Shown here: positions 20,248-28,430 of the stretch, one piece after another
Layout of the letters: every line of letters begins with the position of its first letter
Position numbering within the stretch: position 1 is the first letter of the stretch
DNA from: Methanosaeta sp. PtaB.Bin018
GTDB taxonomy: Archaea > Halobacteriota > Methanosarcinia > Methanotrichales > Methanotrichaceae
Assembly: GCA_002067755.1 (NCBI GenBank)
Contig: MVQH01000056.1
Span: forward strand, 1-32,578
Direction: 5' to 3'
DNA length: 32,578 bases
Notes under the pieces: model-generated
Database searches by the model: none
Seen by the model: only the letters and a program-made list of their open reading frames with translations
What the model was told of the DNA's origin: nothing
Position numbers and translations under genes: made by a program

Positions 20248-20538
20248 TCAAATATCCTGTTCTGACTCGATATCGCATAATCCTGGCTTATTGCCATTTG
20301 GAATGAGCCTGTAAATCTTGCCAAGGAGGTTAAGCCTTACATATCCATCTACCGGAACGGCATCGAAGTTGTGTGTGGCAAGGAAGAAGGCCAGGTCTTG
20401 TGAGTCCATACTGATATCTTCAAAGGCCGTTATGAGTCTCTTCAAATCGGAGATGTCTTCGCCGACCGCCGATGCGGTGTTTAGCGGGATCATCAGAGTC
20501 AAGGCAAATGCAGCCAGATATTTCATTGCAGCTTTCAT
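20248..20538 (-). CDS. Small secreted protein, paralogue of the 20714-20989 product
   Basis: 96 residues from the ATG at 20538. The start is supported by a TATA-like TCTATATG (minus, about 20562-20569) 27 nt upstream and no ribosome site, i.e. a leaderless message. Residues 1-24 are a signal peptide (MKYLAAFALTLMIPLNTASA). The mature part has a helix (EDISDLKRLITAFEDIS) and then QDLAFFLATHNFDAVPVDGY, matched by the neighbour's QELAFFLATHDFDARPEDGY. The C-terminus (IYRLIPNGNKPGLCDI) is likewise shared. The core probably forms a small alpha-beta unit outside the membrane. No known domain is recognised. It lies beyond its paralogue and the pentapeptide protein on the same strand. Confidence 0.8.
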   Translation of the reverse strand: MKAAMKYLAAFALTLMIPLNTASAVGEDISDLKRLITAFEDISMDSQDLAFFLATHNFDAVPVDGYVRLNLLGKIYRLIPNGNKPGLCDIESEQDI

Positions 20539-20713: not shown

Positions 20714-20989
20714 TTAATTGATGACGGCTATATCGGCCAACCCTGGCCTATCTTTGTTGGGAGTCACCTTGTAGACCAAATTATCGATCTTGACTGTAAC
20801 ATAGCCGTCTTCTGGCCTGGCATCGAAGTCGTGAGTGGCTAGAAAGAATGCCAGTTCCTGTACACCCATCCTCGCGTCCTCATAACTCATTGTCAGATTC
20901 AATAGGTCCTGATAGTCGACATGACCTTTGCAACATGGCCCTATCAGGCAGATCGCAGCCAATAGCAAAGCTACGAAGCGACCCCTCAT
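20714..20989 (-). CDS. Small secreted protein, paralogue of the 20248-20538 product
   Basis: 91 residues from the ATG at 20989, which has GGAGG (minus, 21001-21005) 11 nt upstream. A GTG at 21007 would place that site inside the gene. The N-terminus RGRFVALLLAAICLIGPCCK is a signal peptide, and its CC could be a lipid-attachment or disulphide site. The mature part contains YEDARMGVQELAFFLATHDF, DARPEDGYVTVKI and VYKVTPNKDRPGLADI, aligned end to end with the protein at 20248. It starts only 40 nt after the stop of the pentapeptide-repeat gene, so the two are probably co-transcribed. Function unknown. Confidence 0.8.
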   Translation of the reverse strand: MRGRFVALLLAAICLIGPCCKGHVDYQDLLNLTMSYEDARMGVQELAFFLATHDFDARPEDGYVTVKIDNLVYKVTPNKDRPGLADIAVIN

Positions 20990-21029
20990 CCCCGATATTG
21001 CCTCCACTCGATCATTCGCACGTCATCCA

Positions 21030-23540
21030 TCATGTTAGCAGGGACTTTTTTGCTGATCTCATCTCTTCTAGATCCTTTTGCAGACCAGGGCTCATGCGGA
21101 CGCCCTCTAGATCCGAGTTGGCCAGGAAGTACAGGGTTATCAGGTCGTACTTGATGCCCTCGAGGTTGGCGCCCCGCAGATCCGAATCTATAAATGCCAC
21201 TTCGGACAGATTTGCACGACTCATATCTGAGCCAGAGAGGTTGACTTTGTGCAAAGACGTCAAACGTAGATTTGAATCTCTGAGATCTGCACCACTGAAG
21301 TCCACTCCGTCATAGGTCGCCGTCTCTATGACTGCAGATCTGAGTTTGGCCTTGCGAAAGACTGTTCCCTCCATGCTCAGCCTCTTCATGACGGTGCCGC
21401 TCAGATCCGCTCCGGACACGTCTGCCCCATCCATATAATTGCTTATAAGCTCAGCATCCCTGATGTTCGCTCCGGATAAATCTGCATTAGTAAGGTCTGC
21501 AAAGTTCAGCTTGGCATTTGTGACTGTAGAGCCGGATAGATTCGCCCTGGGAAGGAACGCCCTGGTAAAGTCCGAGCCGGTCAGATCAGATTCGCTCAGG
21601 TCAGTTCCAAACAGCTCTGCACGGGCAAGCTGAGACCTCACAAGGCGGCATCCCTTCAGATCAGCCCAGTTGAGCTTGGCACCCAATAAGCTCGTCTCTA
21701 TGAGATCAGCACCTTTCAAGATGGTCTGAGTAAGATCGGTTCCAACCAGCCTTGCGTCGCTCAAATCGGCACCAGTGAGATTGGCCCCGTTAAGCATCGC
21801 CCCTGTCATATCCGAGAAGCTCAAGTCGCAGCCTGAGAGATCTGAGTTATTCATATGGGCTAGGTTCAGCCTTGCGTGGCTCAGATTCGATCCAGCCAGA
21901 TTCGCCCGGTATATCCAAGACTCCATGAGGTTGGCACCGTAAAGATTTGCTGAGGAGATATCGCAGAAAAGGAGCACAGATATCGATAGATTGGATTGTG
22001 ATAGATCTGCTCTGCTGAGATTGGCACCGATTAAATTCGTGAAGATCAGTTTGGATCGGCGCAAATCTGCTCCGAAGAGATTAGCGCCTGAGATTCGAGC
22101 CTCAGATAAATTGGCATTCGATAAATTCGCATGAGATAAATTAGCGTTGATGATATTCCCGCCAACAAGGCTTGCATCTGTCAGATTTGCATCGATCAAG
22201 ATCGAATCGCGAAGAAAGGCACGATTCAGACTAGCATTTTTAAAGCTCGCTCTTCGAAGGTCTGATCGGCCTAGGTTAGTTGCTTCTAAGCTTGCATCAT
22301 CGAAATTAGCGCCAATCATAACAGACTCTCCCATCATAGCCTGATCTAGATTTGCTCCTTTTAGATAGGCACCTGTTAGATTCGAGTTCATCATTTCAGC
22401 CCTTTTGAGGATCGCATGTTCTAGAAAAGCCATTGACAGATCGGACCCATGCAGTTCAGACTGACTTAGATTCTTCCTTGTAAGGTTCAGCCCACTGAGG
22501 TCCTCACCAGCGAGATGGGCAAGAGCTTGAAATGGTTGATTGATCATAGTGCTTCCTGGAGGCAGGCGTTCGAGAGGAATGCCCCATTGAATGATCTCGA
22601 AGTAATCAAACATATACTGATTCGGAATTTTATCAATCACAGGGATATTTTCAGGCGCTTCGCCTTGTAGAATGCGGATGGCCAGATCTGCAGCCTCACA
22701 GCCCTGTGAACGACCACTGATCATCTTTCCACCCACGACGCCATATCCCAAATAGAATTCATAAACGCTGTAAAAGGGAACGGGGCTTGATTCTGTGATT
22801 AGCTGGGCAGTATCCTCGTAAGACAAAAACCTCCCAGCACTGTCTCGACTCATGGTCATAAGCAGGATCAGGCTATCGACAGAGAGAGCTGCAAGTCGCT
22901 CGCGAAGCTCATCTACTGTGAGGTTATCCAGATGCTCAAAGGAGACTGAATTCTCAAAGCCGGGGATGACCCTCTCCAAAACCCGCCTTGCTGCCCGCCC
23001 GGTAGCAGTCCGGTCGTTGATAACAGCAATATGCCTTGTGCCGGGATGAAGAGAGAGCATGAGCGAAATTGTGTCTGCTATATCATAAGCCTCTACGACA
23101 CCGGTATAGCCTCGCGTTCCCTTTAGCACATCCGGATCAAAGTCCACGACGCCGCAGAAGACGACGGGCGTCTTGGGAAAGATGTCATCCCTGTTCTTCA
23201 GCAGGAAGTTGAATGCATCTGTATCAGAAGAGATTATGAGATCGAATGTTTGATTTTTGTATTTTTTAATGTATAAAGACTTGAGATCTGCGAGACGCGC
23301 CTCATCTGCGCCCATCCTCTTTGTGTCCATATATTCGACGTATATTCTCGCAGATGGCATCTTCATGGCGAAGTGTAGCTTAATTTCTGAGATGATCTCG
23401 TCCTCCCACTTCATGCCAGGATAATAAGAGGCAAGAATGAGAACCTTCTTGGGAGAACTCTCCTGGACAGTTGGTGATGCTGAGACCATTGACAGAGTAA
23501 TTACCAAAAACAATCCAATTGCCAGCATCTTTCCGCTCAT
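21030..23540 (-). CDS. Exported protein: ABC-type ligand-binding (sensor-like) domain fused to a long pentapeptide-repeat domain
   Basis: 836 residues from the ATG at 23540. CTTAATTC (minus, 23562-23569) lies 26 nt upstream and no ribosome site is seen, so the message is probably leaderless. Residues 1-21 are a signal peptide. Residues about 30-320 resemble the ABC_sub_bind family: KKVLILASYYPGMKWEDEII, FDLIISSDTDAFNFLLK, VVFCGVVDFDP, YSVYEFYLGYGVVGGKMISG. Such domains often serve as extracellular sensors of histidine kinases. From about 345 to 810, nearly every fifth residue is Leu/Met/Ile/Phe in A(D/N)LxX pentapeptides (NLSHANLSNANLSEA), about 90 in all, predicting a right-handed quadrilateral beta-helix of some 23 turns. 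No membrane anchor or kinase follows. The combination is unusual and its function is unknown. Confidence 0.88.
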   Translation of the reverse strand: MSGKMLAIGLFLVITLSMVSASPTVQESSPKKVLILASYYPGMKWEDEIISEIKLHFAMKMPSARIYVEYMDTKRMGADEARLADLKSLYIKKYKNQTFDLIISSDTDAFNFLLKNRDDIFPKTPVVFCGVVDFDPDVLKGTRGYTGVVEAYDIADTISLMLSLHPGTRHIAVINDRTATGRAARRVLERVIPGFENSVSFEHLDNLTVDELRERLAALSVDSLILLMTMSRDSAGRFLSYEDTAQLITESSPVPFYSVYEFYLGYGVVGGKMISGRSQGCEAADLAIRILQGEAPENIPVIDKIPNQYMFDYFEIIQWGIPLERLPPGSTMINQPFQALAHLAGEDLSGLNLTRKNLSQSELHGSDLSMAFLEHAILKRAEMMNSNLTGAYLKGANLDQAMMGESVMIGANFDDASLEATNLGRSDLRRASFKNASLNRAFLRDSILIDANLTDASLVGGNIINANLSHANLSNANLSEARISGANLFGADLRRSKLIFTNLIGANLSRADLSQSNLSISVLLFCDISSANLYGANLMESWIYRANLAGSNLSHARLNLAHMNNSDLSGCDLSFSDMTGAMLNGANLTGADLSDARLVGTDLTQTILKGADLIETSLLGAKLNWADLKGCRLVRSQLARAELFGTDLSESDLTGSDFTRAFLPRANLSGSTVTNAKLNFADLTNADLSGANIRDAELISNYMDGADVSGADLSGTVMKRLSMEGTVFRKAKLRSAVIETATYDGVDFSGADLRDSNLRLTSLHKVNLSGSDMSRANLSEVAFIDSDLRGANLEGIKYDLITLYFLANSDLEGVRMSPGLQKDLEEMRSAKKSLLT

Positions 23541-23569: not shown

Positions 23570-23627
23570 AACCTTTCGTAAGAACGTTTGGAGGAGCCTT
23601 GGCATCGTCAGCGAAGCGGACCAAAAG

Positions 23628-23635
23628 CTTTAAAT
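23628..23635 (+). promoter_or_regulatory. Candidate TATA box for the second BtuF-like gene
   Basis: CTTTAAAT preceded by CCAAAAG (BRE-like). Transcription from about 23657 would give a 29-nt leader that includes GGTGAGAGG just ahead of the ATG at 23686. Confidence 0.5.
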
Positions 23636-23685
23636 CAAATATTTCTGTTTTTAGTTCAATAAATTTTAATTCGTTGGTGAGAGGT

Positions 23686-24600
23686 ATGATTTCGAAGTCG
23701 ATGATCTCGGCCTTGATCGCGATGCTTCTCTTGATCTCGGTAGCATGCGCGCAAGAGAGCAATACAATTACTACTACTGATGACCTGGGCCGACAGGTCA
23801 GCATCTCAAGTGCTCCAGAGAGAATTGTCTCTCTTTCGCCATCCAATACGGAGATACTCTTTGCCCTCGGCCTGGGAGACCAGGTTGTCGGCGTGACCAA
23901 GTACTGCAACTATCCGTCAGTTGTAAAAGACCTCAAAGATAGTGGAAAAATTGCGGTCGTAGGCGGTTATGTAGACCCTGATTTTGAGAAGATCCTATCA
24001 CTTCGACCAGATCTCGTGGTGGCCAGCCAAACTCATGGTAGCGGAGTCGTCACACTCCTGGATCAGCAGAACATTCCAGTCTTCGTCGTTGATTCCAACA
24101 ATCTGTCAGACATCCTTCGTTCCATAGAGAAGATCGGCAAGATCACAGGAAAGGCGGCAGAGGCATCAGCCCTCACTTCGCAGATGCAGTCCCGAATCAA
24201 AGCAGTATCGGATAAGGTCTCATCGCTTCCTAAATTGAGGGTCCTTTATGTGGTATGGCACGATCCGGTTCAGACAGCGGGCTCTGGCACCTTTGAGGAT
24301 GAGATCATACAGACGGCAGGGGGCGAAAATCTCTTCCATGATCTGTCTGGCTACGCACAAGTGGACACAGAGGCGATAGCTGTGCGAGATCCTGAGGTGA
24401 TCATTGCTTGCACGGGCATGGGTGAAGGTGCGGACAAGCCCCTTCAGTGGGCTAAGGCCGAACGCGGACTCGACTTGACGGATGCCAGGAAGAATGATCG
24501 CATATATCAGGCACAAGGCGACCTTATAACCCGCGCAGGACCAAGGATTGTGGACGGCCTGGAGATGTTCGCAAAGTTCATTCATCCCGAGGCGTTCTGA
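23686..24600 (+). CDS. ABC transporter substrate-binding protein, BtuF (cobalamin/iron-chelate) type, without adjacent transporter
   Basis: 304 residues from the ATG at 23686, with GGTGA 5 nt upstream and a clean signal peptide (MISKSMISALIAMLLLISVA, cleavage after ACA). The frame is open back to 23599 but that would mask the export signal. Class III binding-protein features are TTDDLGRQVSISSAPERIVS, LSPSNTEILFALGLGDQVVG, VVGGYVDPDFEKILSLRPDL, ETAGGENLF-like QTAGGENLFHDL and AVRDPEVIIACTGMG. The CNYPSVVKDL segment is typical of BtuF-like corrinoid or haem binders. No permease or ATPase lies beside it, so it either shares the importer at 2819-4686 or works with one outside the window. Confidence 0.9.
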   Translation: MISKSMISALIAMLLLISVACAQESNTITTTDDLGRQVSISSAPERIVSLSPSNTEILFALGLGDQVVGVTKYCNYPSVVKDLKDSGKIAVVGGYVDPDFEKILSLRPDLVVASQTHGSGVVTLLDQQNIPVFVVDSNNLSDILRSIEKIGKITGKAAEASALTSQMQSRIKAVSDKVSSLPKLRVLYVVWHDPVQTAGSGTFEDEIIQTAGGENLFHDLSGYAQVDTEAIAVRDPEVIIACTGMGEGADKPLQWAKAERGLDLTDARKNDRIYQAQGDLITRAGPRIVDGLEMFAKFIHPEAF

Positions 24601-26467: not shown

Positions 26468-27661
26468 TTGAAGTGCCAAATTGCAGATGCAGCTGGAATG
26501 AAGTTTGGGAGGTATGGGGGTCTCTTCGTGCCCGAGACCCTGGTGCAGCCACTGTTGGAGCTGGCTGGAGCCTACGAGCAGATGAAAAATAGCGATGAAT
26601 TTCATCGCGAGCTGAAGAACCTCCTGAAGAACTTCGCAGGAAGGCCGACGCCACTCTACTACGCCAGGAATCTGAGCAGGGAGCTGGGCCGCAAGATCTA
26701 CCTGAAGAGAGAGGATCTGGTGCACGGTGGCGCTCATAAGCTCAACAACACATTGGGCCAGGGGCTGGTTGCAAAGAGGATGGGCAAGACCCGGCTAATC
26801 GCTGAGACTGGCGCAGGCCAGCACGGAGTGGCCACTGCAATCGTAGGTGCAAATTTAGGATTCGAGACACAGATCTACATGGGCGAGGTAGACATCGAGC
26901 GGCAGAAGATGAACGTCTACCGCATGCAGCTCATGGGTGCCGAGGTCATACCAGTTCGATCAGGTTCTCGAACGCTGAAAGATGCCATCAACGAGGCCAT
27001 GAGGGACTGGGCTTCCACTTTCGAGCATACTCATTATCTCCTGGGCACAGCTGCGGGTGCCCACCCATTCCCCAGCATGGTCAGGGACTTTCAGAGCGTC
27101 ATAGGAGAGGAGGCCAGAAGGCAGATCTCAGAGGCCGAAGGCCGTCTTCCTGATAGCATTGTGGCCTGCGTTGGCGGTGGCAGCAATGCCATGGGGATCT
27201 TCGCGCCGTTCCTGAAGGACAGAGTTCGCCTCTTGGCGGTCGAAGCTGGTGGGAGGGGTCCTGGCAAGACAGACAAGATCGCTGATAATGGCGCTTCGCT
27301 GGGATACGGGACGGACGGCGTCCTGCACGGAGCCCTCACAAAAATCCTTCAAGATCCCTACGGCCAGATTCTGGAGTCATATTCCGTGGCTGCAGGCCTG
27401 GACTATCCGGGCGTGGGACCTGAGCTGGCATATCTGGCAGAGACGGGGCGCGTTCATCCGAGGATGGCCGATGACAAGGCCGCTATTCGCGGATTTAGGG
27501 CGCTCTCAAGGTTTGAGGGGATCATCCCTGCACTGGAGTCGGCGCACGCCATTGGCTATGCCATGAGCGAGCCTGAAGCCCTGGGAGAGCTGACGATAAT
27601 AAACGTGTCTGGTAGAGGAGACAAAGACCTGGCAACGGTGATGGAATATGAGAATTCTTGA
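26468..27661 (+). CDS. trpB: Tryptophan synthase beta chain (TrpB1 type)
   Basis: 397 residues from a TTG at 26468 with GGTGAT 3-4 nt upstream. An ATG at 26498 is a shorter option. Motifs are [13 protein letters not shown], the PLP-binding lysine Lys91 in [40 protein letters not shown] and the glycine loop [12 protein letters not shown] for PLP phosphate. EAGGRG and GRGDKD near the C-terminus complete the set. It joins indole and serine to make tryptophan. Short length and the GAGQHG/SAGLDYPG-type ([10 protein letters not shown]) segments identify TrpB1, the partner of TrpA, not the stand-alone TrpB2. It overlaps trpA by 14 nt. Confidence 0.97.
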
Positions 27662-28430
27662 AGCTTTTAGCCACAGCCCACTGCTGATCGTCTACATATG
27701 CTCTGGAGACCCATCGCCTCAGGCCACACCTGATCTGGTGCGCAGGCTGGCAAGGGCGGGCGCAGACATCATCGAGCTTGGGCTACCTCATTCCGATCCT
27801 ATTGCCGATGGGCCGACAATCCAAGCGGCAGCACAGAGGGCCATCGCCGCAGGGATGAACACAGATGTTTACTTCGATGTTGCATCTGTGGCTGGCGACG
27901 CAGTCCCTCTGATATTCATGGGCTACTACAACATGGTCTATGCTCGCGGACTGGACAGGTTTGCAAAAGACTGCGAAGATAGCGGCATCTCTGGAATGAT
28001 TGTGCCCGATCTGCCGCCAGAAGAGGCAGCTCCGCTAAAGGAGGCATGTGTGCGGCACGGCGTGGATCTGATCTTCCTGGCAGCCCCAAATACGCCTCCA
28101 GCGCGCCTGAAGATGATCTGCGAGGAGACATCCGGCTTTTTATACCTGGTGGCTCGGAAGGGCGTCACCGGCGCGAGGAGCGACGTCTTGCAGGATACGA
28201 GGGACCTCATAGCTCGCGTGCCTGGAGGGGTGCCAAAGGCTGTGGGCTTTGGCATCTCGACGCCTGAGCAGGCCGCTGATGTTATTCGCGCTGGAGCAGA
28301 TGCTGTCATCGTTGGCTCGGCCTGCGTGGATCTGATCGCTAAGGGCGAGATCGAACGACTGGAGAGGCTGGTGAAGGATATGAAGGAGGCCATCGCCAGA
28401 GCGAAGGGCAAAGCTCCAATAGTTTGTTGA
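27648..28430 (+). CDS. trpA: Tryptophan synthase alpha chain
   Basis: 260 residues from the ATG at 27648, overlapping trpB by 14 nt. Catalytic Glu43 ([11 protein letters not shown]) and Asp54 (IADGP) are both present. The TIM-barrel phosphate-binding parts ([24 protein letters not shown]) and the [11 protein letters not shown] loop are typical. It cleaves indole-3-glycerol phosphate and channels indole to TrpB. The rest of the pathway (trpE, G, D, C, F) is absent from the window, so the operon is split. Confidence 0.97.

Follow-up and report, generated by a model that had tools for sequence, protein, structure and literature searches.

The window, by which we mean the whole 32,578-nucleotide stretch analysed from Methanosaeta sp. 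PtaB.Bin018, carries on its reverse strand a gene for an exported protein in which a binding-protein head precedes a long pentapeptide-repeat rod, followed downstream by genes for two small exported proteins that are related to each other (Table 1). Strong hydrophobicity in 19-residue windows was confined to residues 1-25, in line with an earlier note that had called the protein exported from the sequence alone. Judged by eye, the signal would be cleaved after VSA, with a signal anchor as the alternative. The same hydrophobicity windows revealed no membrane helix after the N-terminal signal anywhere in the 836 residues, and neither HisKA or HATPase domains nor the membrane helix of a sensor kinase were detected in them by Pfam or hydrophobicity; the rod thus does occupy the place of a membrane helix and kinase, as the note had proposed. 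No lipobox cysteine was seen by eye, and no cell-surface anchor or sorting signal was found in the protein. The note had given no strand and had mentioned neither the helical cap nor the small neighbouring genes.

Table 1. Features of the head-rod gene and its small neighbours in the window.
Feature	Position	Strand	Basis or remark
Whole gene, exported head-rod protein, 836 aa	21030..23540	-	ATG to TGA, intact
N-terminal export signal, residues ~1-22	23475..23540	-	Sole strongly hydrophobic stretch
ABC_sub_bind / TrpX-CD0873-like head, residues ~31-334	22539..23450	-	Pfam PF04392, profile match to 6hni and 3lkv, AlphaFold2, Foldseek
Pentapeptide beta-helix rod, residues ~342-795, ~22.7 turns	21156..22517	-	Pfam PF00805, AlphaFold2 pLDDT ~98
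Conserved outward-facing rod patch, R597 W625 R640 E642 R660 F662 R665 D682	21495..21752	-	Conservation in 33 headed and 15 headless proteins
C-terminal cap, residues ~798-836: tail motif YD...L...L.G..MS..L..DL and two helices	21033..21149	-	AlphaFold2, alignments
Small exported protein 1, possible partner	20714..20989	-	40 nt downstream of head-rod gene
Small exported protein 2, paralogue of protein 1	20248..20538	-	Same family

An AlphaFold2 model, computed from an alignment of 19 family members, shows an alternating alpha/beta head up to residue ~334, then a beta-helix that runs without a break through residues ~342-795, and finally a helical cap. Mean pLDDT was 90.3 overall and ~98 in the rod; the pTM of 0.62 leaves the orientation of the head relative to the rod unsure. 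Pfam, this model and Foldseek agree with the earlier assignment of the first ~320 residues to a sensor-type ABC_sub_bind domain: PF04392 matched residues 91-303 (E 1.3e-7; 31.6 bits, the curated cut-off being 25.9), and the modelled head has the two-lobed type I binding-protein fold, with Foldseek matches to CD0873 (6hni/6hnj), TrpX (3lft) and 3lkv at TM scores of 0.67-0.76 by target length. A PDB search with the single head sequence gave chance matches only, and a profile built from 34 heads was needed to match 6hni and 3lkv by sequence. The head keeps residues that are also invariant in kinase sensors. TrpX and CD0873 share its fold at 13-16% identity, but they are free-standing binding proteins without a rod.

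The rod was matched by the Pfam Pentapeptide family PF00805 in 16 stretches (E 4.5e-86), and a simple register fit counted ~98 pentapeptide repeats in the protein. Pfam, the register fit and the model all place it in PF00805, taken as at least eight contiguous A(D/N)LXX repeats in a four-sided beta-helix, and the model, with 454 residues or ~22.7 turns of 20, comes close to the ~465 residues and about 23 turns first estimated. Its nearest folds in Foldseek were HetL, Np275/276, Qnr, MfpA and designed beta1 solenoids. HetL, Np275/276, Rfr32, Qnr and MfpA form the same four-sided beta-helix but have much shorter rods, lack a binding head and come from other lineages; Rfr32 resembles the window protein further in its signal peptide and in the helical cap at its C-terminus (PMC8145042). 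The bacterial protein YjbI, compared by description only, is likewise an exported pentapeptide protein of the cell envelope, but is located at the outer-membrane surface, and a binding head is not mentioned in its abstract (PMC12864828). Measured against the closest orthologue, dN/dS was 0.21 for the head and 0.17 for the rod, indicating purifying selection on both. The repeats contain many N-L-S/T sites, for which N-glycosylation was considered as a cause and rejected: at the repeat position S/T is rarer after N than after D (0.56 vs 0.65), so the sites follow from the repeat consensus. The source genome has three STT3-type genes. Large clusters of reverse-strand open reading frames at these loci are antisense readings of the repeats and were ignored.

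The architecture is widespread within one archaeal family. The head is present in 32 of 50 Methanotrichaceae genomes, often in several copies, and ~34 copies combine it with pentapeptides, measuring 679-978 residues from stop to stop where complete. The rods have about 15-29 turns, depending on the copy, and 26 of 27 headed proteins differ in total rod length by whole turns, although these copies are related and the independent events fewer. The earlier statement that no described protein has this domain order stands as far as the literature searched goes, since our search found no description of an ABC_sub_bind head with a pentapeptide rod, but with dozens of Methanotrichaceae copies the protein is no one-off. 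The search of related genomes that the note had suggested also disposes of its own caveat, a frameshift joining two genes, and of an assembly error with the same effect. Although the window comes from a 104-contig assembly, the same join occurs in ~34 copies from independent assemblies, among them the one- and two-contig genomes G046 and G016, and the junction is conserved, which makes such an artefact scarcely conceivable.

Outside the family, the same head leads elsewhere. Across the 393 genomes of the phylum, all 20 archaeal head matches read from outside Methanotrichaceae continue into a membrane helix and then PAS or kinase-type regions. A scan of 84,980 species genomes gave 314 relatives, of which the best 80 were taken; among these, all 26 Methanotrichaceae loci carry pentapeptides (a few are labelled merely Methanosarcinales, Euryarchaeota or uncultured archaeon), whereas the remaining ~54 loci, mostly from bacteria of many phyla, carry a membrane helix and signalling domains. 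A tree built from 91 heads groups all 34 fused ones together with support 100, and a single change of state explains the fusion. On this evidence the head-rod design arose once, in Methanotrichaceae, though rare fusions may exist in other lineages beyond the best 80 relatives. The archaeal and bacterial sensor kinases with an ABC_sub_bind domain (PF04392) have heads up to 45% identical to that of the window protein, ending at the same point, LPxGSxxxN.., after which they continue into the membrane helix and PAS or kinase-type domains and the window protein into its rod. As the rod begins at the junction at which the related kinases pass into the membrane, the protein looks like the sensor domain of a kinase re-housed on a rod.

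Methanothrix hybrid histidine kinases with a distant head, 26-30% identical, form a separate clade (loci L090, L091, L093, L094 and L100, with L092 cut off), and in five of these six loci a gene family of 350 aa, by eye a methylthioribose-1-phosphate isomerase, lies close to the kinase gene. A decayed tandem copy occurs at L068:4066-4998, where a complete fused gene is followed by part of a second head (residues 8-230).

The rod is more than the rigid stalk for a binding head that had been suggested earlier; Pfam, AlphaFold2 and Foldseek support the head and the stalk, but the C-terminal end of the rod belongs to a conserved module. The C-terminal region could be aligned among 48 pentapeptide proteins encoded at the loci, of which 33 carry a head and 15 do not. 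At positions that face outward and are neither structural nor part of the repeat consensus, R597, W625 and R640 are conserved in 100% of both groups, E642 in 91% of headed and 100% of headless proteins, R660 in 85% and 100%, and R665 in 97% and 93%; residue 662, F in the window protein, is Y in 94% and 100%. The W, R and E of this set are invariant in alignment A6, and the W/R/E motif is absent from three short copies (L069, L070, L072). The 20-residue period would place R640/R660, E642/F662/D682 and W625/R665 in stacks on one face of the rod, so that the conserved W/R/E/Y/R residues should form one surface patch. The W and the tail motif lie 173 or 174 residues apart in 40 of the 44 proteins, while the stretch from the head to the W ranges from 212 to 412 residues; only the part of the rod between head and patch varies in length. 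Together these spacings describe a constant C-terminal module (the W/R/E/Y/R patch, about 8.6 turns and the helical cap), a variable spacer, and a head in some members.

When the phylum was searched with this module, full-length matches were found only in Methanotrichaceae, at 111-229 bits (self-match of the window protein, 462), and the best match outside the family was partial, at 82 bits. Headless proteins with the same module also occur in Methanotrichaceae members that have no head, and the source genome encodes three other pentapeptide proteins, all headless and, by eye, with export signals. We define these as a family of exported pentapeptide proteins with an export signal, a W/R/E patch 173 residues before the tail motif and a helical cap, a description that the window protein fits. 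Two of the headless genes in the source genome, on contigs C80 and C86 (L244, L245), are nearly identical and share the same upstream gene, and represent either a duplication or two strain versions within one assembly.

The two small exported proteins encoded downstream are 51% identical over 63 residues; for the first, the gap to the head-rod gene shrinks to 22 nt if the upstream GTG at 21007 is its start. They belong to a family with the motif DLAFxLATHxFDAxPxxxxVxVxxxGxxYxLxPNGxxPGLaDI, members of which are encoded close to 20 of the 34 fused genes and in every case on the same strand, at up to 500 nt in 15 loci and at 1.2-2.1 kb in five, with an intervening gene in some. The examined surroundings of the other 14 fused loci, some of them cut by contig ends, contained no member. 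With ~4 such genes per genome, chance alone would produce no more than a few percent, a figure meant as approximate since the loci are related to one another. The family is present in 42 of 50 Methanotrichaceae genomes, some of which lack the fused gene. The small proteins had no match in Pfam or NCBIfam, and their AlphaFold2 model (pLDDT 83) showed no likeness to solved structures, Foldseek giving nothing below E 0.37. In a longer exported form of ~235 aa, the small-protein domain is followed by a C-terminal half that carries Cys, His and Asp motifs, has no Pfam match and looks by eye like a transglutaminase. The longer form lies directly before a headless pentapeptide gene at L081, L243, L246, L249 and L256, in several Methanotrichaceae genera, and its copy in the source genome is at L243:6832-7506 (C81).

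Bmp/PnrA-type binding proteins, SBP_bac_3-Cache proteins and headless rods are likewise encoded repeatedly beside fused genes. No kinase adjoins the head-rod gene within the window; at three loci a multi-PAS hybrid kinase lies beside the fused gene, and no membrane sensor was detected in those kinases. In the window, a Peripla_BP_2-type gene at 23599-24600 is transcribed away from the fused gene, the two starts being 58 nt apart, and is 27% identical to a second gene of this type at 1644-2807. A divergent Peripla_BP_2 gene adjoins the fused gene only in the window and its nearest relative, L082, and at L071 and L089 a weaker relative lies nearby. Genes resembling TrpB and TrpA lie at 26468-28430, 2.9 kb from the fused gene. 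TrpX binds tryptophan. A tryptophan link through the TrpB/TrpA pair was rejected, as the pair was found only in the window, L082 and L080 (another genus, at about 5 kb) and at no other examined locus.

The reading of the head-rod protein that we favour, with a probability of roughly one half, is a ligand-binding receptor outside the cytoplasm, its head kept at a distance from a C-terminal docking module. The head would bind a small, perhaps amino-acid-like, molecule, and the C-terminal module would dock on a common partner in the cell envelope, with the rod holding the head several nanometres from it. Binding would then be read out through the docked partner, possibly together with the neighbouring small exported proteins. 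If the signal were left uncut, the N-terminus could serve as an anchor, which would place the head close to the membrane and turn the rod outward. Such a protein would have originated when the sensor domain of a kinase was joined, once, in Methanotrichaceae, to an existing family of exported pentapeptide rods. In Caulobacter, YjbI is described as a secreted pentapeptide protein that acts upstream of two-component pathways (PMC12864828), and by analogy may serve as a precedent for a receptor in the envelope. Methanothrix filaments are enclosed by a tubular sheath (PMC11576556), which could keep an unanchored exported protein in place.

The sheath would also suit a scaffold, in which the proteins were fixed parts of the envelope or of the space beneath the sheath (PMC11576556) and the head a decoration whose binding was secondary or lost. 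A long rigid rod is a suitable spacer, and proteins with the same module and no head exist in family members that lack the head altogether; yet the head is under purifying selection similar to that on the rod and retains the residues invariant in kinase sensors, and the word pentapeptide is absent from the survey of the sheath (PMC11576556). To judge by the AlphaFold2 model alone, the amyloid-like core of two beta-sheets that marks archaeal sheath (SH) proteins is absent. We consider a purely structural role possible, if doubtful.

A surface adhesin, with the head displayed by the rod outside the cell to attach to other cells or surfaces, seems unlikely. Long rigid stalks are common in adhesins, and CD0873, the nearest of the solved heads, is a tyrosine-binding protein that also acts as an adhesin (PMC6816091), but it is only 13-14% identical to the head, the protein has no recognisable surface anchor or sorting signal, and the sheath may lie outside it. 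We give slightly less credence still to a transport role, in which the head would deliver its ligand to an ABC permease while the rod fixed it in the envelope. Membership of the ABC_sub_bind family, the divergent Peripla_BP_2 gene in the window and the Bmp and SBP_bac_3 proteins encoded beside relatives would all fit such a role. The divergent neighbour is limited, however, to the window and L082, no ABC permease, of the TrpX type or otherwise, was seen beside the fused gene, and in the head tree the heads descend from the kinase-sensor branch.

A broader proposal, which we offer tentatively and hold to be rather improbable as a whole, is that the receptor is one part of an archaeal envelope system. 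The C-terminal docking module would be carried by exported pentapeptide rods with interchangeable N-terminal parts (a binding head or none) and accompanied by a small exported protein, headless rods being associated also with a transglutaminase-like enzyme, and the whole would serve sensing or assembly in sheathed methanogens.

The order of the two known domain types seems undescribed in the literature searched, as do the lineage, the shared module and the small partner. A review from 2021 on pentapeptide proteins never uses the word "fused", mentions archaea once, and reports that a function is known for few members of the group (PMC8145042). The analysis defines a family of exported pentapeptide proteins whose surface carries a conserved site. 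In one archaeal family the sensor domain of a kinase appears to have come off the kinase and onto a rigid rod, once, at the junction normally taken up by the start of the membrane helix. In digesters and wetlands, Methanothrix is a major producer of methane from acetate, and to our knowledge the way in which it senses its surroundings through envelope and sheath is poorly understood. Precise targets for testing are now available in the patch, the cap and the small partner.
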